In this document: positions 3,038 through 60,540 of the stretch, piece by piece
Numbering within the stretch: position 1 is the first letter of the stretch
Layout: every line of letters starts with the position of its first letter
Assembly: GCF_022447245.1 (NCBI RefSeq)
Contig: NZ_JAKVBC010000032.1
Span: 1 to 64,000, forward strand
Length of the DNA: 64,000 nt
Origin: Kordia sp.
GTDB lineage: Bacteria > Bacteroidota > Bacteroidia > Flavobacteriales > Flavobacteriaceae
Direction of reading: 5' to 3'
Translations under genes and position numbers: made by a program
The notes under the pieces: generated by a model
What the model was told of the DNA's origin: nothing
The model's input: only the letters and a program-made list of their open reading frames with translations
The model's database searches: none

Positions 3038-3919
3038 TTACGCATTCAATGCATCTGTAAAGTTATGCAACTTTTGTTTGAGTGCTTCCGAAGCTTCTAT
3101 CAAAGGCAAACGCACTGTCGCTGTTGACAGGTTCAACTTTTCAAATACTGCTTTGATTCCTGCAGGATTTCCTTCCTCAAAGATATAATCAATAGATGGC
3201 ATTATTTTGTAATGTAACTCGTTGGCAGCTTTTATATTTCCTGCCAAACCTAAACGCACCATCTCCGAGAATTCTTTTGGATATCCTTGTCCGATCACAG
3301 AAATAACTCCTGCTCCACCAGCATTTACCATAGGCAAAGTTATCATATCATCTCCTGAAATTACTAAGAAATCTTCTGGAGCATCTTTAATTAAACGCAT
3401 AGCTTGTACAATATCGCCTGCTGCTTCCTTTACTGCGATGATATTCTCAAAATCGTTGGCTAGTCGAATCACCGTTTCTGGCAATACATTACTTGCTGTA
3501 CGTCCTGGCACATTATACAATACAATTGGTTTTGGACTCGCTTCTGCAACTGCTTTAAAGTGCTGATAAATTCCTTCCTGCGTTGGTTTATTATAATAAG
3601 GAGAAACAGATAAAACGGCATCAAAATGCTGCAAATCTGTAGTTTTTAATTCATTCACAACAACAGCGGTATTATTTCCTCCAATTCCTAAGATCATTGG
3701 CAAGCGTTTCTTATTTGTCTTGATAATGGTATCAATAACTACCTGTTTTTCTTCCTTTGTCAAAACGGCACTTTCTGCGGTAGTTCCTAAAACTACCAAA
3801 TATTCTATTCCGCCTTCAATTACATGCTCAACGATGTTTGCTAGTGCAATTGTGTCTATTGAACTGTCTTCGTTAAAAGGTGTTACCAACGCAACTCCAG
3901 TTCCTATGAATTTCTTCAT
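3038..3919 (-). CDS. dapA: 4-hydroxy-tetrahydrodipicolinate synthase
   Basis: 293 residues, the usual length. It condenses pyruvate with aspartate semialdehyde in the first committed step of the diaminopimelate/lysine pathway in the cytoplasm. The TIM barrel carries GTTAES near residue 45, the catalytic Tyr in LYNVPGR (Tyr135) and the Schiff-base Lys in [10 protein letters not shown] (Lys164). It follows the DUF6913 gene by 2 bp and precedes the Kir channel by 9 bp, so a three-gene operon is likely. The other diaminopimelate gene of the window, dapF, lies about 50 kb away. Confidence 0.96.
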
Positions 3920-3921
3920 TA

Positions 3922-4431
3922 TTATAATTTATTAAGTATGTGTAAATATGTATGTAGTTCTTTTGCAAATGTTGTCACTTCATTTTCTTTTGTTTGAATA
4001 ATGACATCATGTATTTCCTGATTGCTTCCTGCAATACCGACTTTAAAATTTGCTTTTTGTAAACCTGAAGCCAGTTGTAATGGTAAAATCTCATCACTGT
4101 AATAACTGATCAATAAATCGTATGGTTTATTAAGAAATTCCGCAAGCTCCGTTGTTTTAGCTTTTCCTTTCCATCCAAAGTCTTTTTCATAGAAAACAGG
4201 ATAGTTCACTTCGCGTGTTTTTTGAAAGGCTTTATGATAACACATCACCTCAATTTCAACATTAAGTTGTAAACTCTTAACAATGTGCTGAAAATCTTCT
4301 GTTACGTCAGCATTTACGATAATACCAACTGTTTTAATTGGCGCTGCTTCCACTTCTTTTGTAGTGGTTTTGTTAAGCTTTTTCGTAAGTACTTTCTTAG
4401 CTAACTTATGTTGTAATCCTTTTAAAAACAT
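3922..4431 (-). CDS. DUF6913-like protein upstream of dapA
   Basis: 169 residues with no signal or membrane segment. A basic N-terminus ([18 protein letters not shown]) is followed by an alpha/beta domain with [23 protein letters not shown] and [11 protein letters not shown] place it in the DUF6913 group of Bacteroidota proteins of unknown role, often found next to dapA; this is from recall. The start ATG at 4431 sits 20 bp downstream of a good TAnnTTTG element. It is the first gene of the unit with dapA. Confidence 0.75.
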
Positions 4432-4451: not shown

Positions 4452-4459
4452 CAAAAATA
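4452..4459 (-). promoter_or_regulatory. TAnnTTTG (-7) element of the DUF6913-dapA unit
   Basis: On the minus strand the bases read TATTTTTG, an exact match to the Bacteroidota -7 consensus. It lies 20 bp before the DUF6913 start and downstream of the strong minus-strand terminator at 4471-4505. So the operon has its own promoter and is insulated from the upstream transcript. No good -33 TTTG is seen at standard distance. Confidence 0.55.
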
Positions 4460-4470
4460 CTCTTTTTCGA

Positions 4471-4505
4471 CAAAAAAAGAGATGCATGAATGTACATGCA
4501 TCTCT
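4471..4505 (-). terminator. Strong intrinsic terminator on the minus strand
   Basis: GAGATGCATG and CATGCATCTC form a perfect 10-bp stem (extendable by one A-T pair) with a 6-nt loop. On the minus strand it is followed at once by seven Ts. On the plus strand there is no T-run, so it works for leftward transcripts only. Confidence 0.8.
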
Positions 4506-4552
4506 CTTGTAACAAAAAAATGTTGATTATGTTCTTCCTCTTGAACGTAAGT
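4471..4552 (-). ncRNA. Candidate small RNA, about 80 nt, ending in a strong terminator
   Basis: A perfect minus-strand terminator stands between two divergent genes, so something short must be transcribed toward it. Upstream on the same strand is a matching TAnnTTTG element (TAACTTTG, 4566 to 4559). Upstream of that is a two-copy direct repeat placed where an activator would sit. The predicted RNA starts near 4552 and ends in the T-run near 4471. Apart from an ATG inside the terminator stem, I see no start codon with a usable frame, so it is probably non-coding. Existence and ends are inference. Confidence 0.45.
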
Positions 4553-4558
4553 TATACA

Positions 4559-4566
4559 CAAAGTTA
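4559..4566 (-). promoter_or_regulatory. TAnnTTTG (-7) element for the candidate small RNA
   Basis: The minus strand reads TAACTTTG, an exact consensus match, about 90 bp before the terminator. At the -33 position there is a T-tract rather than a clean TTTG, as expected for a promoter that needs an activator. Confidence 0.5.
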
Positions 4567-4592
4567 CAAGGAGTTTTTGGGATGAAAAAAAT

Positions 4593-4640
4593 TATTTTAT
4601 AAGCGTCAATTTTTAACAATGAACGTCAATTTTTGGCAAG
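4593..4640. promoter_or_regulatory. Two-copy direct-repeat operator, 20-bp period
   Basis: The 11-mer CGTCAATTTTT occurs at 4604-4614 and again at 4624-4634, exactly 20 bp apart, so both copies face the same side of the helix. It lies just upstream of the presumed -33 of the small-RNA promoter and about 100 bp upstream of the plus-strand nucleotidase gene. The arrangement resembles LytTR-type paired direct repeats, but the binding protein is unknown. The first 16 bases of the site, 4593-4608, recur exactly at 30843-30858. Confidence 0.5.
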
Positions 4641-4736
4641 TAATCACAAAAAAAGTGTATGTTTTTAAAATTATTTAGTATTGTTGACAACGGTTGTATC
4701 TGCTATTTTTTATAATTTGCCGCATATTTTAAGTTT

Positions 4737-5486
4737 ATGAGAAAAATTATTGCGCTGCTAGCCATTTTTATAGCAATTTCTTGTTCCAAAGAAAAACAGT
4801 CAGTTTCTAAGATTGAAGGAAAACGTATCAACATCAACGATTCCATAACTACCAATCAAGAAATTGAAGATTTTATCAAACCTTTCCGTAAGCGTATCCA
4901 AGAAGATATGAATAAAGTCTTGAGCTATGCCTCAAAGGATATGCACAAGAATGATGGCAAGTTAGAAACTACGATTGGAAATTTAATGGCTGATTTGGTA
5001 AAATCGCAAAGTGAACCTATTTATAAAAAACGAACTGAAAAAAGTATTGATATTTGTATCTTAAATCATGGAGGAATTCGTGCTCCTATTCAAGCAGGTC
5101 CAATTAAAACACGTACTGCATTTAATGTAATGCCTTTTGAAAACTCAATTGTTGTGGCTGAATTAACTGCTGAGAATGTACACGGCATGATTGATTATCT
5201 GGTAAAAGCAAAACGAGCTCATCCTATTTCAGGATTAACGATTAAGTTAGACCAAAATGATAAACTTGTTGAAGCCCTGGTTAATGGAAAACCTATTGAG
5301 GCTAACAAAACCTATGCTGTAGTTACTTCAGATTATTTGCAAAATGGCGGCGATCGTATGGATTTCTTGAAGAATCCTGAAAGCCTAGAGATTTTGGATT
5401 ATAAAATTCGTAATGCAATGATTGATTATTTTAAAACTGTTGACACCATTCCTGCAAAATTAGATGGCAGATTTATTCAACAATAA
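4737..5486 (+). CDS. 5'-nucleotidase C-terminal domain lipoprotein
   Basis: 249 residues. A lipoprotein signal ends in AISC (Cys16). The rest is the C-terminal substrate-binding domain of UshA-type 5'-nucleotidases: NHGGIR near residue 117, then AFNVMPFENS, and QNGGDRMDFLKN near 200. The metallophosphatase domain that normally precedes it is instead encoded by the next gene, 11 bp downstream. The two products probably work as one periplasmic or surface nucleotidase that releases phosphate and nucleosides. Split pairs like this are known in Bacteroidota; the order here is C-terminal half first. Confidence 0.88.
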   Translation: MRKIIALLAIFIAISCSKEKQSVSKIEGKRININDSITTNQEIEDFIKPFRKRIQEDMNKVLSYASKDMHKNDGKLETTIGNLMADLVKSQSEPIYKKRTEKSIDICILNHGGIRAPIQAGPIKTRTAFNVMPFENSIVVAELTAENVHGMIDYLVKAKRAHPISGLTIKLDQNDKLVEALVNGKPIEANKTYAVVTSDYLQNGGDRMDFLKNPESLEILDYKIRNAMIDYFKTVDTIPAKLDGRFIQQ

Positions 5487-30450: not shown

Positions 30451-30573
30451 TTAATAGATTCTTTTATAATATTTACAACATAACTCACTACAAAACAAAC
30501 ATTTGACAATTCATGTGTAATCGAAATTCTTTTTTATAAAAAGCTCATGGATTACAGATTCCTCAAAAAAAAT

Positions 30574-30740
30574 AGCATCCCAGAACTTAGGGAAGTCTCT
30601 CCCCATTGTGCAAGTAGCATCCCCGAACTTGGGGAAGCTTCTCCCGTTGTGCAAATAGCATCCCTGAACTTAGGGAAGCCTCTCCCTGTTGTGCAAGTTG
30701 TATCCCCTAACTCGGGGAAGCTTCTCCCTGTTGTGCGAGT
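30574..30740. repeat. Four tandem 42-bp GC-rich palindromic repeats
   Basis: Units begin at 30574, 30616, 30657 and 30699; three are 42 bp and the second is 41 bp. Each unit holds CCCN-six bases-NGGG followed by GGGAAG...CTCCC and a TTGTGCAA-like spacer. The fourth arm position pairs differently in each unit: A/A mismatch, C-G, T-A, C-G. A 70-codon plus-strand ORF runs across, but the 41-bp unit shifts the frame between units 2 and 3, so protein coding is unlikely. The GC content is far above the surroundings. Confidence 0.75.
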
Positions 30741-30830
30741 AACTCCCCCAATTACATAAATCCTACTTGTTCTTCTGTTTGTTTTTATGAAGTACTAAAA
30801 AATCAATGAAACATCCAAAGAATCTTTTAT

Positions 30831-30860
30831 GAGCGTCGTAAATATTTTATAAGCGTCATT
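30831..30860. promoter_or_regulatory. Second two-copy operator-like site, 20-bp period
   Basis: AGCGTC occurs at 30832-30837 and 30852-30857, exactly 20 bp apart. The 16 bases at 30843-30858 are identical to 4593-4608. It lies about 230 bp upstream of cutC. Read leftward, a TA-containing box (TAGTACTT, a poor TAnnTTTG) lies at nearly the same distance as the good one at the first site, so the target could also be a leftward transcript through the palindromic repeats. Confidence 0.45.
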
Positions 30861-31812: not shown

Positions 31813-33017
31813 AAAATATTCAAAAAATAAGTCTATTCATAATCATCTTTTGTACTGCATGTACAGAACAGAAATTAGAAAGCATAGGCGATACTTCTAT
31901 TACAGTATTCAATAAAGAGAATTTACATTTTAACATGGCTTTCAAAGAAAATGTAGCGGAAGACGAAAACGGACTCTTGCGATTGGATGCTGGTCGTGTG
32001 CTTGTCAAAAAAATAAAACTTCCAGACTATCAACTACAGCCAGAAGTCACACTACATGTAACACTTACTTCAAATGGTGATCCTTGGGACAAATCGGGTT
32101 CCATGTTTGTAATTCCAAAAACTTCCAACCTAAGTTTAGTGGATTTTGAGACAGGGAAGTTTGATCTTAAAACACTAAAACAAAAATTTCCTGCAATTTC
32201 TACGTATAAAAAAGACAGTCTTTTACACGAACCAAATCTGGAGCTGTTACGTTTTATGACACCATTTGGTGTAGGACATTTTACCAATGATGAGCGTGTT
32301 AAAAGTCGCAAACCAGTGTACATTCCGAAATGGGAAAACGAAGTCAATTGGTCGCAAAACATTACACATTTATTGCCTTTATTAGAAGATGAAGTATATG
32401 TCGGCGTATTTATTGATACATGGACAAAAGAAGGTTATAACATTACCGCTACATTGGATTTTAAAGAAAGTGAAATTCCAAATCATGCTAAAAAACAACA
32501 AACCATTATACCCTTAGTGAATACTTCTAAATATGCTTCTGATCAAAAATTATATGATGAATTTTCTCGTTCGGACTTAACTGTTACATTTGAAATGCCG
32601 GCGAGTTATAAAAATGCCAAACTGTACTATATCACCACAGGACACGGCGGACATGCTGGTGGAGATGAGTTTGTAAAAAAAGAAAACAACATCTCGTTAG
32701 ACGGAGAAACGATCAAAGCATTTATTCCTTGGCGTGACGATTGTGCGAGTTTTAGACGTTTCAATCCGACTTCGGGAACTTGGAAAGCTAATGAATTTTA
32801 TGATGATGTAGATGATTGTGAAAAAATCGCCTCTTCCGATTTATCACGCTCCAATTGGTGTCCAGGAAGTGACATTCAACCTGAAATCATTCCGTTAGAT
32901 AATATTTCACAAGGAAAACACACATTAAAAATATCAATTCCAGAAGCACAAGAAGCCAAACAAGGCGAAGACAACTATTGGATGGTTTCTGCTTACATCG
33001 TATATGACAATGAATAA
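31809..33017 (+). CDS. PNGase F-like peptide:N-glycosidase lipoprotein
   Basis: 402 residues with a lipoprotein signal (CTAC, Cys18). The N-terminal half holds paired beta-sandwich strands (VTLHVTLTSNGDPWDKSG, LLRFMTPFGVGHFTNDE). The C-terminal half has TGHGGHAGGDEF, FIPWRDDCASFRRFNP and SNWCPGSD, the arrangement that in PNGase F carries the acidic active-site residues and Cys pairs. These enzymes release whole N-glycans by cutting GlcNAc-Asn. It overlaps cutC by 4 bp and the GH2 gene by 14 bp, so tight coupling is expected. Activity is inferred from family. Confidence 0.88.
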   Translation: MKNIQKISLFIIIFCTACTEQKLESIGDTSITVFNKENLHFNMAFKENVAEDENGLLRLDAGRVLVKKIKLPDYQLQPEVTLHVTLTSNGDPWDKSGSMFVIPKTSNLSLVDFETGKFDLKTLKQKFPAISTYKKDSLLHEPNLELLRFMTPFGVGHFTNDERVKSRKPVYIPKWENEVNWSQNITHLLPLLEDEVYVGVFIDTWTKEGYNITATLDFKESEIPNHAKKQQTIIPLVNTSKYASDQKLYDEFSRSDLTVTFEMPASYKNAKLYYITTGHGGHAGGDEFVKKENNISLDGETIKAFIPWRDDCASFRRFNPTSGTWKANEFYDDVDDCEKIASSDLSRSNWCPGSDIQPEIIPLDNISQGKHTLKISIPEAQEAKQGEDNYWMVSAYIVYDNE

Positions 33018-60479: not shown

Positions 60480-60540
60480 GATTAACCTCTGGCGATAGAC
60501 GTGAATGTTGGTTCAAATCAACCTTTATAAAAAGTTTAAA
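60480..60540 (+). ncRNA. Candidate structured leader of rplS
   Basis: GATTAACC (60480-60487) can pair with GGTT(CA)AATC (60510-60519) across a two-base bulge, enclosing TCTGGCGATAGACGTGAATGTT, between promoter and start codon. I recall that an L19 leader RNA has been proposed in Flavobacteria; whether this matches that model is not checked. It could give feedback control by L19. Confidence 0.4.

Follow-up and report, generated by a model that had tools for sequence, protein, structure and literature searches.

A candidate small RNA gene behind a LytTR-type operator in Kordia, and the DNA-uptake-like regulon around it

Which transcript could end at a terminator that points left between two divergent genes? 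A gap in the genome of a Kordia sp. (Flavobacteriaceae) raises this question: it lies between a DUF6913-dapA unit on the minus strand and a divergent gene whose product has a 5'-nucleotidase C-terminal domain. We studied it within a window, meaning the whole stretch of 64,000 nucleotides that was analysed, and found the gap in all 11 Kordia genomes. From its sequence, the gap is probably an independent small RNA gene of about 83 nt (RNA1), which would be switched by a LytTR-type activator and would sit within a DNA-uptake-like regulon. The parts of this reading that sequence supports are the gene anatomy, its conservation, the operator, the spacing and the regulon membership.

Layout of the gap and the predicted RNA1

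On the minus strand, the gap reads as a direct repeat, 32 bp, a -7 box, 53 bp, and a hairpin followed by seven Ts (Table 1). The gene to its right, described as divergent in a preliminary description of this DNA, indeed lies on the plus strand. The TAnnTTTG box of Flavobacterium psychrophilum is placed at -12 to -5 in the available text of PMC9723704, and this placement puts the start of RNA1 near 4554 and its length near 83 nt.

Table 1. Positions of the predicted RNA1 gene, its control elements, the flanking genes and a second operator in the window
Feature	Position	Strand	Basis
dapA (DHDPS)	3038..3919	-	PF00701, E 1.8e-75
DUF6913 protein, first gene downstream of RNA1	3922..4431	-	PF21857, E 6.7e-46
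-7 box TATTTTTG before DUF6913-dapA	4452..4459	-	TA[TC]TTTTG at -27/-28 from the start codon, 11/11 genomes
Predicted small RNA (RNA1), about 83 nt	4472..4554	-	Start from box placement at -12 to -5 (PMC9723704)
Intrinsic terminator, 11-bp stem, 6-nt loop, T run	4472..4505	-	Sequence, fold, 11/11 Kordia genomes
5' region of RNA1, predicted small hairpin, GAGG-type loop	4520..4553	-	Fold; two forms in the genus
RNA1 -7 box TAACTTTG	4559..4566	-	32 bp downstream of the operator, as elsewhere in the regulon
Predicted LytTR-type operator ACGTTCAT-N12-ACGCTTAT	4599..4626	-	Genome-wide pattern and matrix score 36.2
Candidate -7 box TAATTTGC (TAnnTTGY type) of the divergent gene	4713..4720	+	Read in the sequence; motif type from PMC9723704
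Divergent protein, 5'-nucleotidase C-terminal domain (5_nucleotid_C)	4737..5486	+	PF02872, E 1.2e-25
Second operator of the same type in the window	30829..30856	-	Before a tandem-repeat array

The terminator has a perfect stem (4505-4495 paired with 4488-4478), a loop at 4494-4489 and seven Ts at 4478-4472. Its stem counts 11 bp, or 10 bp when the outer A-T pair is assigned to the tail, so the leftward perfect 10-bp terminator with seven Ts that had been reported stands within that one pair. A simple terminator scan called no terminator in the gap; the likely reason is that the longest stem extends into the T tract. The predicted RNA1 folds at -24.3 kcal/mol (z -5.33, with 0 of 200 shuffles as good), mainly due to the terminator.

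A terminator stem of 10-11 bp lies 46-48 nt ahead of the DUF6913 start in all 11 Kordia genomes. No such terminator was found in the 400 bases upstream of DUF6913 at loci of other genera (0/19, part of 37 matching genomes outside Kordia; in eight of these loci the match begins inside the ORF and the 400 bases are counted from that point). The terminator alignment comprises 14 pairs with 91.6% of cells paired, and its covariation score was reached by none of 500 shuffles, with the structure derived from the same alignment of 11 sequences. Four of the 14 pairs changed on both sides, which is the covariation in the stem that the preliminary description had proposed as a check, and sliding the partners lowers the number of such changes.

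The 11 RNA1 sequences have no reading frame or start codon in common, and a conserved leader peptide was rejected on these grounds. The expectation of an RNA of about 80 nt with no useful reading frame thus agrees with the prediction made here. Upstream of the terminator, the 5' part takes two forms that differ by a 3-base gap: five genomes have GUUC-(8)-GAAC and six a CUAAC..GUUAG-like version. Both put a GAGG- or AGGG-like stretch in the loop. Across the 11 genomes this hairpin displayed no covariation beyond single wobble changes and is not counted as evidence; its sequence has a mean identity of 63% across the genus, which we count against an independent RNA.

Searches by similarity added little. 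At the gathering score, Rfam gave no match for RNA1 or for the scanned loci of a second RNA-like element, RNA2, described below. Sub-threshold Rfam matches in the gap were rejected as chance-like (Ref66, 30.4 bits against a cut-off of 92; PyrR, 25.9 against 54). A search with the RNA1 DNA in 249 sampled genomes of the family, 247 of them from other genera, found five matches beyond Kordia, each 23 to 42 bases long and none of them convincing. Elsewhere in the window, the sole Rfam match at gathering score was an L19-Flavobacteria ribosomal leader (60483-60510, plus strand, 41.8 bits).

Each of the two leftward -7 boxes can be followed across the genus. The exact TAnnTTTG box noticed before RNA1 is present as TAACTTTG in this genome; two of the 11 genomes have TAACTTCG and eight have TAnnTTGC, so the exact TAnnTTTG is not the usual RNA1 form in the genus. 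The TAnnTTGC form resembles the SM5 motif TAnnTTGY, for which the available text of PMC9723704 considers control by an alternative sigma factor most likely. Eight RNA1 promoters, including that of this genome, lack a TTG at -33 and three have one; thus, the need for an activator is not uniform. The separate box that had been assigned to the dapA unit beyond the terminator was recovered as TATTTTTG and in its TA[TC]TTTTG form in every Kordia genome. No TTG was found 14-23 bp before this box, at -33, in any of the 11, so the case for a separate DUF6913 promoter is made by the -7 box by itself. We count both TTG results against an independent RNA1.

On the other side of the gap, the stretch around CACTTTTTTTGTG (4645-4659) has 93% identity, the highest among the gap segments measured, and is possibly a site for the divergent promoter.

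The direct repeat as a genus-wide operator

The direct repeat consists of ACGTTCAT (4626-4619) and ACGCTTAT (4606-4599), and its period of 20 corresponds to an 11-bp spacer for 9-mers. The pattern ACGYTYRT-N12-ACGYTYRY has 148 matches in the 11 Kordia genomes (10 to 20 in each), compared with one for the reversed control. Among 297 sampled family genomes outside Kordia, 29 have one match each, versus 46 with a match to the reversed control. We tabulated 147 of the 148 sites; the missing one, a site of genome G003, was removed either as a duplicate 70-base context or by an edge filter.

A TAnnTT box follows the repeat at 32 or 33 bp in 101 of the 147 sites. Between 6 and 69 bp, other pairs of neighbouring offsets have 4.3 sites on average and at most 11, a control that leaves out offsets 0-5, where offset 4 alone has 29 matches and is part of a longer operator consensus. 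The box is absent at 32/33 bp from the other 46 sites, and this is counted against the independent-RNA reading. All 11 RNA1 sites obey the spacing to the leftward -7 box and keep the operator orientation.

With a matrix trained on 90 sites, comEC sites kept and no RNA1 site among them, RNA1 operators scored 26.9-43.4 in the 11 genomes. The best background score was 2.7 among 1000 400-bp stretches of other genera and -6.2 among 1000 taken at dprA loci of the genus itself. Thus, the two-copy repeat of 20-bp period seen by the preliminary description is there, and its reading as an activator site is strongly supported by an operator found genome-wide with constant spacing to the -7 box. That description had staked its case on relatives keeping the promoter, the repeat and the stem, and all 11 Kordia genomes keep them. 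The finding withstood this check; what had not been recognised was the LytTR type of the repeat and the DNA-uptake-like regulon.

The general LytTR consensus gave the first hint that the repeat is of LytTR type. In a DNA search of this genome the repeat turned up once more, ahead of the gene for a stand-alone LytTR-domain protein. In published LytTR operators, 9-bp direct repeats separated by 11 to 13 bp lie directly before the -35 element, and the BrsR operator reads ACCACTTAT-12-ACCGCTTAT (available text of PMC6193735). The Kordia repeat has the same core, with half-sites that agree and a spacer of 11 bp. The direct repeat is most likely a LytTR-type operator, and its binding is a prediction from this likeness.

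The operator also precedes LytTR genes, at 11 sites in five of the 11 genomes (blast cluster, one member Pfam-confirmed). None of the eight such sites that were classed has a box at 32/33 bp. Regular-expression classing gave eight LytTR and eight RNA2 sites; blast clustering gave the 11 LytTR sites, and the ninth RNA2 site is L131.

The second operator in the window is followed after about 90 bp by a tandem array (30570-30736) of four copies of a 42-bp hairpin-like unit. Such arrays lie behind operators at 11 sites in nine of the 11 genomes, according to a simple self-match test.

Genes and RNA-like elements behind the operator

Representative genes behind the operators matched, in Pfam, RadC, RecA, YifB/ComM-type Mg-chelatase, ComEC (Competence), HU-HIG and tyrosine recombinase; for recA and yifB/comM, one member each was Pfam-confirmed. 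Sites of the strict pattern were present before RNA1/DUF6913 in 11 of 11 genomes, the recA leader in eight, radC in seven, yifB in five and a pilin-like gene in four. The pilin-like protein matched ComP_DUS below the curated cut-off (24.0 versus 27.3 bits). The ORFs around it, judged by eye, include pilins, a PilB-type ATPase, a PilC-type platform protein and a secretin, and we read the cluster as putative type IV pilus or secretion genes. In Bacteroidetes, systems of such pilus type can be secretion systems, according to the available text of PMC6668835. Sites of the remaining class, 68 of the 147, precede lipoproteins, secreted proteins, tandem arrays and unknowns, and this class is counted against the reading; seven of ten further downstream genes that were scanned had no Pfam match.

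Three or four operators occur in each of four stretches (L106, L107, L108 and L109) whose gene clusters look like type IV pilus or secretion systems. These clusters contain a large protein, RHS-like by eye, which had no Pfam match in the one stretch scanned.

For competence genes proper, we used a matrix of 87 training sites with neither comEC nor RNA1 among them. An operator lies 91-95 nt before the comEC start codon in all 11 genomes, with scores of 7.8 to 47.2 and two weak sites (L254 and L260). Within 400 bp upstream of dprA, no operator was found in any of the 11 genomes (scores -31.1 to -13.1), a distance at which a site further up the operon would escape. Three of the 11 dprA scores exceed the 95% point of -16.8, none of them near a true site; the background behind this point contains the true sites of L106-L109, and its 99% point is 37.6. 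Judged by this negative result, which we count against the reading, dprA seems to stand outside the DNA-uptake-like regulon.

Several operators precede no ORF, and at one such site there follows RNA2, an RNA of about 80 nt with two strong hairpins. RNA2 is present in all 11 genomes, unlinked to RNA1, with the operator found by the matrix in ten and by the pattern in the eleventh. Its terminator displays compensatory changes by eye, and outside the genus it gave short matches only, in 22 genomes. Since RNA2 stands behind a like operator, RNA1 is less likely to be a one-off accident of a divergent promoter.

The RNA2 locus L205 (G000:C33, about 32200-32900) and its counterparts (L203-L213) form a cluster of small-RNA-like elements. 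In L205, an element behind the near-perfect palindrome ACGTAATTTATAAATTACGT comes first, and then RNA2 with nearly the same terminator hairpin; a third terminator-ended element follows RNA2 in seven of ten aligned stretches of L203-L213. Besides, the roughly 500 bases from operator to recA hold strongly conserved hairpin-like stretches (ACTGCAACTACGGGAAAAATAAAAGTGCTTC... and CTAGCTAATTCATTGTTAAT...) at L104, L067, L121, L136, L141, L152, L155 and L177, and no Rfam match was found in the three of these eight loci that were scanned.

Alternative explanations, proposed mechanism and known systems

The same arrangement could be a 5' leader with a conditional terminator, in which LytTR-driven transcription would read through into DUF6913-dapA and the hairpin would act as an attenuator. 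In all 11 genomes the operator does share the strand of DUF6913 and precede it by 193-196 nt, with no gene between, and the lack of a -33 TTG before the DUF6913 box means that the gene's own promoter may be weak. However, that -7 box is conserved after the terminator in every genome, the terminator is the dominant fold among the minimum-energy and consensus folds computed, and the linker able to hold an antiterminator strand is the least conserved part of RNA1 (45% identity), so we consider attenuation unlikely. Still less credit goes to RNA1 as a by-product, with a LytTR site that serves the divergent nucleotidase or some other purpose and a terminator that merely shields dapA from stray transcription. 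In its favour, the operator sits in a divergent intergenic region beside the 93% identical CACTTTTTTTGTG element. Against it, every Kordia genome keeps both the operator orientation and the 32-bp spacing to the leftward -7 box, this geometry is directed downstream at 101 of the 147 sites, and RNA2, likewise without an ORF, stands behind an operator of this kind in all 11 genomes; we find this reading very unlikely.

The genome has 49 LytTR-domain matches, and a close paralogue of the stand-alone type (E 1e-15) was found in only six of the 11 genomes, so several LytTR proteins are candidate regulators; this, too, is counted against the independent-RNA reading. As these 49 matches allow no one-to-one pairing, a regulator outside the LytTR family could bind the repeat. 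We regard this as improbable, given that the repeat length, the 11-bp spacer, the position before the promoter and the CGCTTAT core equal those of published LytTR sites and that 11 operator sites precede LytTR genes.

For an independent RNA1, we infer its transcription, the identity of its activator, its pairing and its targets as follows. Transcription of RNA1 would begin near 4554, run leftwards and stop at the terminator (4505-4472). A LytTR-domain activator bound to the repeat, centred near -58, would aid RNA polymerase and offset the weak or missing -33 element, and the same activation would occur at nine or more other operator sites of this genome. Through this common LytTR-type activation, RNA1 would be made together with the DNA-uptake and recombination set, that is, with comEC, recA, yifB/comM, radC and the pilus-like genes, while DUF6913-dapA would be served by its own box. 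RNA1 might then tune mRNAs by base pairing via its 5' GAGG-loop region; pairing through this loop is a guess by analogy with AgrA-RNAIII and the pneumococcal csRNAs.

One close likeness is to AgrA of Staphylococcus aureus, a LytTR regulator whose binding to direct repeats immediately ahead of a poor core promoter activates RNAIII (available text of PMC4227749). In Kordia, too, LytTR-type direct repeats lie upstream of a promoter for a putative regulatory RNA, but neither neighbour of RNA1 is a LytTR gene. RNAIII encodes delta-hemolysin and has its intergenic region in common with the agr operon, whereas the Kordia RNA1 is predicted at about 83 nt with no common frame. The HdrRM and BrsRM systems of Streptococcus mutans are alike in their 9-bp direct repeats 11-13 bp apart before -35, and may be alike in their autoregulation and their tie to natural competence (PMC6193735). 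However, the available text of that source does not mention a small RNA for them, and no paired membrane inhibitor gene was found at the one Kordia LytTR locus with its ORFs inspected (L002).

Among small RNAs, the csRNAs of Streptococcus pneumoniae are likewise several related RNAs tied to competence control (available text of PMC4507080), but they are driven by CiaR and target comC; their likeness to the Kordia RNAs is one of description. The Rfp RNAs of F. psychrophilum are small RNAs of a flavobacterium whose genome has TAnnTTTG-type promoters; LytTR and competence, however, have no occurrence in the main text of PMC9723704. No LytTR competence regulon or competence small RNA in Bacteroidetes was found among the literature matches listed, with subscription journals mostly outside the coverage. 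The pieces are of known kinds, and their combination in this phylum looks new.

Natural transformation has been shown in a few Flavobacteriaceae, among them Riemerella anatipestifer. According to the available text of PMC8459023, transformation of that species requires ComEC, DprA, ComF and RecA and is poor in YifB mutants, and no pilus homologues were found. With comEC, recA, yifB/comM, radC, pilus-like genes and two predicted small RNAs all marked by it, the sharp Kordia operator offers a way into the timing and the means of DNA uptake in such bacteria. On a wider and more tentative level, Kordia may possess a LytTR-controlled DNA-uptake programme that turns on uptake and recombination genes along with several dedicated small RNAs (RNA1, RNA2, and perhaps the recA leader and the hairpin-repeat arrays). 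If true, this would be a competence regulon that includes its own layer of RNA, in a phylum for which no such competence regulator was found described in the literature searched. The operator set predicts small RNAs as part of the uptake switch, and with it the control of DNA uptake in this group becomes testable.
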